DNA of 32,468 nucleotides, from NCBI GenBank assembly GCA_944326855.1, contig CALVFO010000041.1, positions 1 through 32,468 on the forward strand. The letters run 5' to 3'. Source of the stretch: an uncultured Alistipes sp. (GTDB lineage: Bacteria; Bacteroidota; Bacteroidia; Bacteroidales; Rikenellaceae). The notes beneath the pieces are model-generated. The model did no database searches, was not told the DNA's origin, and saw only the letters and a program-made list of their open reading frames with translations. Positions 13,456 to 15,588 of the stretch are shown one piece after another; the first letter of the stretch is position 1; each line of letters starts with the position of its first letter. The position numbers and the translations under genes are program-made.

Positions 13456-14487
13456 ATGCAACTTCGGACTACAGAGCCATCCCGACCCCTGCCTCAAACC
13501 TCCCGTACTCGTCGTTCCGAACGAAGATGGGCCCTGGCCACAACTTTGGCCATTGCCGGAATACTCAGCGCCGTACAGTTACAGGTAAAATCCCCCCTAT
13601 TGTTAGGAGAGCGATGGTTCCCGGGGGGCGGGTGGATTCAGATCATCTTGGCGGCCGGAGCCGGCGGATGGCTGTACGTTCGGTTGCAGCCGCTTCCGAC
13701 CCGAAGCCGATGGAGAAAACGGACGTGGTTGTTGTTTACCCTCGTATTTTTCGCTCAACTGATTCTGGGCATTGGGGTGGATCCGCGCTTTTTACTCAAC
13801 GGAGAACTTCATTTCCCCATACCGGATCTCATTGTAGGAGGAGCCGTTTATCGGTGGCAATTGGGCTTCATGCCGCTACTGTTTCTGGTGACCGTCCTGA
13901 TTTCCGGAGGGGCCTGGTGTCACCAACTTTGCTATTTCGGAGCGTTGGACGCCTTAGCGGCCGGGGAAAACCCCACCCCAAACCAACTCAATTCCTCGAC
14001 GCGTCAACGCCTTCGATTCGGGATCCTCGTACTATTCATACTCACAGCCCTCGGACTGAGGCTGGCTGGTGTATCCTCCTTATGGGCCACCCTGAGCGCC
14101 GGTGCCGTCGGTCTGTTAGGCGTCGGAATCATACTGTTCGGCTCCTATAGACGCAAACGCATGGTACACTGTTCTCTTTATTGCCCCTTAGGCACCCTGG
14201 TATCCTATCTAAAATCGGTTTCGCCCTGGCGATTTCGCATCACAAATCGGTGTACCCACTGCCTGATGTGTTCCCGACATTGTCCCTATGGAGCCCTGAC
14301 TCCCTCCGACATCGAACAGGGAAAACCCGGTCGCAGCTGCACTTTATGCGGAGACTGTCTGCCTCACTGTCCTCACCAGGCCCTGGGGTATTCCTTCCCG
14401 GGTTTAAAACCCGCCACGGCTCAACGTCTCTGGCTGTGTGTCTGCACAACGCTCTATCTTTGTTTCCTGATGTTGGCCCGCATCTGA
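13456..14487 (+). CDS. Membrane-bound 4Fe-4S polyferredoxin (NapH/NosR-like)
   Basis: The 343-residue protein has about six hydrophobic segments (near 25-42, 60-76, 90-108, 136-152, 188-205, 212-230) and a C-terminal one (about 325-341). Two ferredoxin clusters are complete: C266-C269-C272-C276 (CTHCLMCSRHCP) and C295-C298-C301-C305 (CTLCGDCLPHCP). Membrane-embedded cysteine pairs C155/C159 (WCHQLCYFGALD) and C239/C243 (CSLYCPLG) are typical of the NapH/NosR/CcoG group, which pass electrons between the quinone pool or flavins and partner reductases. No partner reductase is encoded nearby, so its electron acceptor is unknown. It closes the possible lipoprotein-GNAT-ferredoxin transcript. Confidence 0.85.
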   Translation: MQLRTTEPSRPLPQTSRTRRSERRWALATTLAIAGILSAVQLQVKSPLLLGERWFPGGGWIQIILAAGAGGWLYVRLQPLPTRSRWRKRTWLLFTLVFFAQLILGIGVDPRFLLNGELHFPIPDLIVGGAVYRWQLGFMPLLFLVTVLISGGAWCHQLCYFGALDALAAGENPTPNQLNSSTRQRLRFGILVLFILTALGLRLAGVSSLWATLSAGAVGLLGVGIILFGSYRRKRMVHCSLYCPLGTLVSYLKSVSPWRFRITNRCTHCLMCSRHCPYGALTPSDIEQGKPGRSCTLCGDCLPHCPHQALGYSFPGLKPATAQRLWLCVCTTLYLCFLMLARI

Positions 14488-14508
14488 GGTTTTCGTTTCC
14501 GGTCACCC

Positions 14509-14548
14509 TAAAAACAAGTTGGTGTCACCGCTTCGCGATAACACCAAC
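14509..14548 (-). terminator. Intrinsic terminator of the candidate small RNA
   Basis: On the minus strand GTTGGTGT and ACACCAAC (plus-strand 14541-14548 and 14518-14525) pair, with an inner CGC-GAA-GCG hairpin, and TTGTTTTTA follows directly (14509-14517). The T-run is on the minus-strand side only, so it terminates leftward transcription. Confidence 0.75.
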
Positions 14549-14720
14549 CCCACTAACTACTAACTATTAACCTAACTTCTACAACATTACCTAACTGACA
14601 TTCAGGTTGTGTAGAAACTTTCAGAGAGCCCCCTCAGACTACTCTGCAAGCGATTTTGCTTGAATATCTCCTGATCGGCAGGATCCGATCCTCGTTCCAA
14701 ATTTAAAATTGAGACTTTCT
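14510..14720 (-). ncRNA. Candidate structured small noncoding RNA, family not identified
   Basis: A complete transcription unit of about 211 nt reads leftwards. It has a consensus promoter (14727-14757), a predicted start near 14720 and an intrinsic terminator (14509-14548), with no usable reading frame between. Four local hairpins can be drawn: 14673-14690 (GATCGG/CCGATC), 14647-14662 (CAAGC/GCTTG), 14622-14646 (CAGAG/CTCTG) and 14577-14616 (7-bp stem TTCTACA/TGTAGAA plus ACCT/AGGT). Between the last hairpin and the terminator the RNA repeats GUUAG several times in an apparently unpaired stretch. Candidates include 6S RNA, the Bacteroidales-1 RNA, or an undescribed RNA; I cannot assign it by eye. 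It is an independent unit, antiparallel to the ferredoxin gene and divergent from the MBL gene. Confidence 0.6.
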
Positions 14721-14946
14721 TTAATGCAAAGATAACTATATTTTTCGTTTTCCCAAATTTTAACCGCACAAAATGTATGTTAAAAAAAGTTAATCTTTCG
14801 TTTTAGCGACGTTTTCGATTTTTTCTTCTGAAGAGCCAGAATTAGCCTTCGAATCGACACCAAATTCCTTTGCTTTTTGTATCTTTAAACATAGAACGTC
14901 ATTCCCGGAACAATTCGTATATATTATATCAAAAAAACAGATCAAA
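14721..14946. other. Gene-free stretch between the small RNA and the MBL-fold gene
   Basis: This AT-rich stretch holds the small-RNA promoter and the probable MBL promoter. A short minus-strand frame (about 14790-14890) would encode a charged tail (EFGVDSKANSGSSEEKIENV) but lacks a credible start, so it is not called a gene. Confidence 0.5.
14727..14757 (-). promoter_or_regulatory. Consensus promoter driving the candidate small RNA
   Basis: TTTG (14754-14757), exactly 19 bases, then TATCTTTG (14727-14734): a perfect match to both boxes of the Bacteroidota housekeeping promoter and, with yajC's, the best in the window. No coding sequence follows it. Confidence 0.8.
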
Positions 14947-15588
14947 ATGGATAAATACCTCTCCTCTGCCGGCGAAATCGCCATCCAACACATCGGTCAC
15001 GGCTCGATTATGCTTCTCTGGCGCGACAAGATCGTTCAGGTGGACCCGTACAGCGAAGTGGCCGATTACAAAACCTTGCCGAAAGCCGATATGATCCTGA
15101 TCACGCACGATCATTACGACCATTACGATCCGCAAGCCATCGAAGACACCCGAAAACCCGATACGATGATCATCGGGAAATTTCCGGACGATACCCCCAT
15201 ACGCTCCCGTATTCCGCTCGACAACGGACAACAAACCCAATGGGAAGGAATCACCATCAAGGCCGTAGCCGCCTATAACCGACTACACATGCGCGCCCCC
15301 GGCCAGCCTTTCCACCCCCAAGGTTTCGGAAACGGTTACATACTGAAAATCGGAGATTTGACCCTTTACATCGCCGGAGATACCGAACCCATACCCGAAA
15401 TGCGGGACCTGGGGCCTGTCGATATCGCCTTTCTGCCCCAGAACCTGCCCTACACCATGGATCCGGACATGTTTATCGAAGCCGTCCACATGATTCGCCC
15501 GCGCATTCTGTATCCCTATCATTACGGAGAGATCGATCGCAAGGCCCTGGCCCGCGCTTTACCCGAAATCGATATTCGTTGGAAATAA
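14947..15588 (+). CDS. MBL-fold metallo-hydrolase (UlaG-like)
   Basis: The 213-residue product has the metallo-beta-lactamase metal motif H54-x-H56-x-D58-H59 (THDHYDHYD), preceded by IQHIGHGSIMLLW and VDPY, the opening of the UlaG-like subgroup. Further metal ligands appear as D145 in YIAGDTEP and H192 in PYHYGE. These proteins are cytoplasmic metal-dependent hydrolases of varied phosphoester or lactone substrates; the actual substrate is unknown. All ligand residues are present, so it should be active. No signal peptide is seen. It is convergent with a methyltransferase gene 19 bases away. A partial -7 match TATCTTTA at 14880-14887 may be its promoter. Confidence 0.88.
   Translation: MDKYLSSAGEIAIQHIGHGSIMLLWRDKIVQVDPYSEVADYKTLPKADMILITHDHYDHYDPQAIEDTRKPDTMIIGKFPDDTPIRSRIPLDNGQQTQWEGITIKAVAAYNRLHMRAPGQPFHPQGFGNGYILKIGDLTLYIAGDTEPIPEMRDLGPVDIAFLPQNLPYTMDPDMFIEAVHMIRPRILYPYHYGEIDRKALARALPEIDIRWK

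Follow-up and report, generated by a model that had tools for sequence, protein, structure and literature searches.

RNAs of the CsrB/CsrC type are protein-sequestering and carry a short GGA motif repeated in and between hairpins, and 6S RNA folds into a single long hairpin that opens into a large bubble at its centre. Rfam includes models of 6S and of Bacteroidales-1. According to PMC11697453, the classical sRNA chaperones are missing from Bacteroides, and until RbpB was described no global RNA-binding protein other than Rho had been characterised in Bacteroidota. The same paper describes the FopS RNAs of Bacteroides thetaiotaomicron, which are bound by the RRM-1 protein RbpB and whose seeds pair with the starts of susC-type mRNAs (PMC11697453).

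Here, we analyzed a 32,468-nt stretch of DNA from an uncultured Alistipes sp. (the window), in which an sRNA of about 213 nt is predicted at 14510-14722 on the minus strand. This prediction is based on the positions of a promoter and a terminator, on the fold, and on a homologue at the same place in another species, uncultured Alistipes sp. isolate E01__bin127 (contig CALVCS010000004.1). The two genomes are referred to as G000 (the source of the window) and G001, respectively.

At gathering thresholds, no Rfam family was matched in the whole window. When the 521 bases around the unit were searched at E ≤10, only two eukaryotic families were found, both far below their cut-offs. Neither the 6S nor the Bacteroidales-1 model was matched in either search, and GibS was absent from both and from a separate search of the 96-base 3' part. 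In that 3' search, FopS (RF04319) was the sole bacterial family listed (12.5 bits, E 6.4), beside a microRNA model. FopS membership was rejected, given a score of 12.5 bits against a cut-off of 56, a single copy, a structured 5' part, and no RRM_1 gene found. A literature search on GUUAG with Bacteroides, thin on subscription journals, had nothing relevant among the matches listed, and a search on sRNAs of Alistipes or Rikenellaceae had no such RNA among the matches listed. The initial annotation had proposed that this might be 6S RNA or Bacteroidales-1 and otherwise an undescribed sRNA. As no Rfam threshold was passed in the window, the latter branch applies, and the RNA is undescribed as far as Rfam 15 and the literature searches show.

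The locus and its predicted transcript

The unit lies in a gene-free gap (14488-14946) that is bounded by a stop at 14487 and a start at 14947. On one side is a gene (13456-14487) that carries Fer4 domains and that we take to be NapH-like; the other flank is an MBL-fold gene (14947-15588, Lactamase_B_3). The gap contains, on the minus strand, an exact match to the sigma-ABfr type of Bacteroidota promoter, with a -33 element TTTG (14754-14757) and a -7 element TATCTTTG (14727-14734; TATTTTTG in G001). The pattern TTTG-N19-TATCTTTG occurs once in the window (14757-14727, minus), compared with 0.01 expected from 100 shuffles, and the looser TTTG-N19-21-TANNTTTG occurs three times, compared with 0.30 expected. 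Thus, the gene-free setting and the perfect minus-strand promoter described in the initial annotation are both confirmed, and the window RNA has the canonical sigma-ABfr promoter that is one test of a FopS RNA. A second promoter-like site, TTTG-21-TAAATTTG (14730-14698, minus), overlaps the transcript start and has its TTTG in common with the first; it was not seen in the G001 alignment.

With the transcription start taken to lie a few bases past the -7 element and the 3' end placed at the T-run, the promoter and terminator positions predict a transcript of about 213 nt, in agreement with the ∼211 nt proposed before. The fold of 14722-14510 has a free energy of -65.8 kcal/mol (z -4.17), which none of 200 shuffles equaled; for the G001 homologue (z -3.13), one of 200 shuffles was as good. 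The centroid fold is a row of small local hairpins followed by the terminator, which fits the local hairpins described earlier.

All of the elements of this fold are on the minus strand. The 5' hairpin, GAUCGG-CCGAUC (14673-14690), belongs to the half of the RNA that differs between the two species and hardly aligns with G001. The next hairpin, CAAGC-GCUUG (14647-14662), has five of five pairs identical in G000 and G001. In the hairpin CAGAG-CUCUG (14622-14646), all eight consensus pairs are kept, two of them via changes on both sides, and in the hairpin CUACACAAC-GUUGUAG (14577-14616), whose inner arm holds the first GUUAG, the same is true of 13 of 13 pairs, again with two changed on both sides. 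The exposed linker GUUAGGUUAAUAGUUAGUAGUUAG (14553-14576) follows, with three GUUAG copies, and is identical in G001. It is part of a 45-nt block (14542-14586), comprising a hairpin end, the linker, and the start of the terminator stem, in which G000 and G001 are identical.

The RNA ends in an intrinsic terminator (14510-14550), and the hairpin and T-run noted before are present as a 16-pair stem (14550-14516) with a 3-nt loop, followed by GTTTTT; G001 retains all 15 of the 15 consensus pairs, one of which has changed on both sides. This stem is the longest of the seven scanned in 3 kb by a lenient search that gives 3.6 sites in shuffled sequence.

No ATG-started frame of at least 20 aa was found within the transcript on its own strand. 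By reading, a 55-aa frame with a GTG start upstream of the promoter has an internal TTG entry of 32 aa, and this 32-aa frame is broken by a 1-nt gap in the G001 alignment. These observations bear out the earlier statement that the transcript has no usable reading frame.

Conservation between two species

In a plain DNA search of 61 genomes (the source genome and relatives), 26 were matched at E ≤0.1, and only G000 (E 5e-131) and G001 (E 1e-31) fell below E 0.001. When 200 family genomes were searched, 29 were matched at E ≤0.01, and the best match after G000 and G001 (E 5.5e-6) was to the promoter region (query 9-60). Matches outside these two genomes are short, and those within query 1-66 cover the promoter region, as judged by position. 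Eight loci that match the middle of the query (starts 71-86) were rejected; they lie in correctly placed open frames of at least 236 aa and are therefore coding, and several of them look to us like dnaB. Within G000, the window RNA has one match at E ≤0.001 and is thus single-copy.

A covariance model built from the G000 and G001 pair (R1) was run against 268 family genomes under filters that discard part of the weak matches. Ten genomes were matched at E ≤0.1: G000 scored 187.7 bits, G001 200.8 bits, and the remaining eight at most 30.7 bits. R1 had no match in the other seven genus genomes (G003 is only 79% complete and G007 69%), and no convincing copy of the window RNA was found beyond G000 and G001 among the 268 family genomes. 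Two pattern searches were set aside. The GUUAG-repeat pattern matched 15 of 101 genomes, with many tandem repeats, and its reversed control also matched (14 loci read); a scan with 23 specified bases gave 11 stretches, and among the eight listed, only one (L105, which is G001) was the window RNA.

The G001 homologue sits between the same two flanking genes, with TTTG-19-TATTTTTG upstream and the terminator retained. At E ≤1e-20, the MBL gene was found in five of nine genus genomes and the NapH-like gene in two, the same two that contain the RNA. The G001 NapH-like gene (G001:C4:17977-18973; L063, L064) matches in two pieces that are not in one reading frame, which may reflect a broken gene or an error in the record.

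The flanking genes provide a measure of neutral divergence at silent sites. Fourfold-degenerate sites are identical between G000 and G001 at 26 of 69 positions (37.7%) in the MBL gene and at 19 of 53 (35.8%) in the C-terminal part of the NapH-like gene, which indicates that silent change is close to saturated. In the RNA, roughly the first 50 nt can hardly be aligned with G001, and the 45 nt across the linker are identical. The presence of 45 identical nt and of preserved pairs, compared with a fourfold identity of only 36-38%, points to strong selection. All 41 consensus pairs are kept (32 unchanged, four changed on one side, five on both sides, and none broken), and sliding the pair partners lowers pairing to 34-47%; these two sequences also served to derive the consensus, which favors the structure in this comparison. 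The observed covariation is reached by 16 of 500 shuffles and, as it comes from one species pair, is support and not proof.

The initial annotation had asked for a collection of homologues and a covariation check, which yielded one same-place relative with the preserved pairs and five double-sided changes given above. It had also stated that a lack of conservation in close relatives would count against the RNA; conservation was found, and it rests on the single species G001. On these sequence comparisons, the unit is very probably a complete, real, and selected non-coding RNA.

The GUUAG linker and a family of shorter RNAs

In the window RNA, GUUAG occurs at RNA positions 128, 147, 159, and 166, each time as AGUUAG. 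The linker is the least paired 26-nt segment of the RNA, ranking first of 188 in the window RNA and first of 202 in the G001 RNA, with some of its bases predicted to be only about half unpaired. The initial description of the repeats as lying in an unpaired stretch holds for the three copies in this linker and fails for the one at 128, which sits in a hairpin arm. All four copies fall within 43 nt; by comparison, both strands of about 402 kb of G000 (803 kb in all) contain GTTAG 119 times. Neither this G000 sample nor 378 kb of G001 has a further group of three GTTAG separated by gaps of up to 20 nt. The linker is probably the functional element. The further suggestion that it could be a binding platform fits the conservation pattern.

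RRM_1 genes are patchy in the family: a search that works, as the Bacteroides control genome was matched, detected them in 14 of 101 genomes and, within the genus, in three of nine (G004, G006, and G008). None was found in G000 (93% complete) or G001, although both carry the sRNAs described here; RbpB is thus either absent from them or was overlooked, and an RbpB-like partner is unlikely. Four more genus genomes, two of them incomplete, also gave no RRM_1 match.

Of the eight weak R1 matches, five (L110-L114) represent a single family of shorter RNAs, each about 100 nt long. Their layout is a promoter (mostly TATCTTTG), an open arm GAAGUUUUA(A)GGUUCAUUUUAGGUUAGUAGUUUUAGGUUAGU, and a terminator hairpin. 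The other three (L108, L109, and L115) contain a hairpin and are non-coding: L109 is repeat-rich, and L108 and L115 seem to lie past a gene end. A second covariance model (R2), built from five such short sRNAs, gave one to four matches in each of the nine genus genomes and matched 12 of 13 genomes at E ≤0.1 (all nine from the genus and three of four other hand-picked family genomes). One of the R2 matches in G001 is the counterpart of the window RNA (24.6 bits; E 0.07 for the G001 genome), and the R2 score of the window RNA itself is only 18.5 bits (E 0.55). In an order-wide search in which 10 candidates per genome were scored, R2 matched 17 of 393 genomes at E ≤0.01; five are in the same family, and the 12 outside it are weak (29.9-36.3 bits). 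When the window linker was aligned with four short arms, the alignment scores were reached by 89, 425, 159, and 113 of 2000 dinucleotide shuffles (4-21%). The position and wording of the shared stretch suggest a common origin for the window RNA and the short family.

The copies of the short family that were tested had no match to FopS, GibS, or another bacterial Rfam sRNA, and the best match in one search was a microRNA model on the terminator hairpin (28.1 bits, cut-off 75). A literature search on words from these sRNAs had no Bacteroidota RNA among the matches listed.

Additional elements were noted in the course of these searches. On one contig of the source genome, two short FopS-like sRNA copies (G000:C51:33437-33538, minus, and 43470-43580, plus; L120, L133, and L196) have a promoter, an open arm with GGUUCAUU..., GUUUUAGGUUAG, and a terminator, and one of these copies is adjoined by genes that read as capsid- and portal-like phage genes (L196, 449-4851). 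A locus in another family of the order (L066, in G236) has the layout of the window RNA, with a TAACTTTG promoter-like site, GUUAG repeats, and a short terminator-like hairpin; its R2 score is only 22.5 bits. An order-wide element, TTTAGGTT...TTTTAGGTT, was present in 74 of 393 genomes, but the reversed control matched many genomes and many loci were simple repeats (nine loci read), and for these reasons no order-wide claim is made for it.

Neither the short RNA nor the window RNA had a meaningful match in phages or plasmids, and three exact viral scans were empty. Eighteen IMG/VR viral contigs (L200-L217) carry GTTTTAGGTTAGTAG-spacer-GTTTTAGGTT, with the outer words fixed by the search. The free spacer is TAATATTTATA in 17 of the 18, some of which may be copies of one phage, and many of these elements are followed, by eye, by a terminator-like hairpin. 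In L202, L212, and L213, the element lies 9-62 nt past a tRNA gene. Rfam scores of viral contigs with the related element are weak (FopS, 31.5 bits against 56; GibS, 34.3 against 115).

Interpretation and comparison with known RNAs

We propose, at about even probability, that the window RNA is a new regulatory sRNA that is encoded between genes, is transcribed independently, and acts in trans, with its linker docking a partner common to the short sRNAs. The linker would be the working part of the molecule, and the role of the structured 5' part would be to shield or display it. That the partner also handles the short FopS-like sRNAs is proposed because the linker weakly resembles their tail; this sharing is a tentative suggestion, put at a little under even. 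The partner would most likely be an RNA-binding protein that reads repeated (A)GUUAG and less likely an mRNA reached via base pairing. A frozen, exposed linker next to hairpins that vary yet remain paired is the pattern of a docking site, and it modestly favors a protein partner.

If the RNA instead acted in trans as an antisense molecule, the linker would be a seed against mRNA leaders that blocks translation starts in the manner of GibS and FopS, a reading that we consider rather unlikely. An invariant exposed stretch beside the terminator is what the FopS report describes (PMC11697453; for GibS, PMC7366714), and CTAAC exceeded expectation in the 60 nt before starts in the G000 sample (18 compared with 11.7 expected), as did CTAACC (10 compared with 3.7). 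This excess was not repeated in the G001 leaders (CTAAC, 11 compared with 17.3; CTAACC, 6 compared with 5.5), and the pooled CTAAC count was 29 compared with 29.2 expected. The strand asymmetry in leaders (29 CTAAC and 6 GTTAG) was discarded, being largely the second-order Markov expectation (29.2 and 9.8). In addition, the linker was predicted to pair with 285 start regions from G000 and 321 from G001 no more stably than 12 shuffled linkers; these regions are from the longest ATG frames of at least 100 aa in about 16-17% of each genome and not from susC genes specifically. The linker also has no CAU with which to face an AUG, and the Rfam FopS consensus has one. It is less probable still that the RNA is cis-acting, antisense to the 3' UTR of the NapH-like gene, and modulates either that gene or the MBL-fold gene on the divergent side. 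The RNA is convergent with the NapH-like gene, no plus-strand terminator-like site was listed in the gap, and gene and RNA occur in the same two of nine genus genomes, but this co-occurrence may only reflect that G000 and G001 are nearest relatives. The 45 identical nt are not explained by antisense pairing, which does not depend on a conserved sequence, and the NapH-like gene may be broken in G001.

It is very unlikely that the unit is a short coding gene or a repeat-derived GTTAG microsatellite that happens to be flanked by an ordinary promoter and an ordinary terminator. Tandem AGTTAGT-type repeats do occur in other genomes, in spacers and apparently within genes, and the 32-aa TTG frame can be read in the transcript, but two species with nearly saturated synonymous sites have the block unchanged, the stems covary, and the frame has no ATG and is lost in G001. 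A housekeeping RNA (6S, Bacteroidales-1, or similar) that has diverged beyond Rfam would have about this length and a structured body, and we regard it as scarcely credible: the permissive Rfam searches found neither model, the centroid fold consists of successive short hairpins in place of a long one with a central bubble, and the lack of a match in seven of nine genus genomes is unexpected for such an RNA.

RRM_1 was not found in six of the nine genus genomes that carry sRNAs with the conserved GUUAG (G000, G001, and four others). The persistence of GUUAG sRNAs where no RRM_1 was found points either to action by base pairing alone or to an unknown binding protein, and the frozen linker is a ready bait for finding the partner. 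In a more specific and improbable version, the window RNA would be a sponge whose four AGUUAG titrate a GUUAG-reading chaperone of the short FopS-like sRNAs and so set their activity. If this were true, Bacteroidota would have a counterpart of the CsrB system, in which the partner is a protein of Rikenellaceae without RRM proteins and is distinct from Hfq, ProQ, CsrA, and RbpB.

The window RNA can be compared with four kinds of RNA. Like the CsrB/CsrC RNAs, it has a repeated motif, with four AGUUAG, three of them in its least paired stretch; the motif is GUUAG in place of GGA. GibS (RF04182) is likewise an intergenic Bacteroidota sRNA in which hairpins are combined with an exposed stretch and a terminator (PMC7366714). 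In GibS, the seeds lie in an open 5' segment (PMC7366714) and the promoter is non-canonical (PMC11697453), whereas the window RNA has its exposed stretch in the 3' part before the terminator and a canonical promoter. With FopS (PMC11697453), the window RNA shares a sigma-ABfr promoter and a single-stranded stretch directly before an intrinsic terminator, and words such as AGGUUAAUA are common to it and the Rfam consensus. It differs from FopS in its 146-nt, mostly structured 5' extension with several hairpins before the linker and in being single-copy, compared with the 14 FopS given for B. thetaiotaomicron (PMC11697453). The short Rikenellaceae sRNAs have the same promoter type and a GUUAG tail ...UUAGGUUAGU with a terminator, and they are present in the same genome as the window RNA; they differ from it in their length of about 100 nt, their open 5' arm GAAGUUUUAGGUUCAUUU..., and their one to four matches per genus genome.
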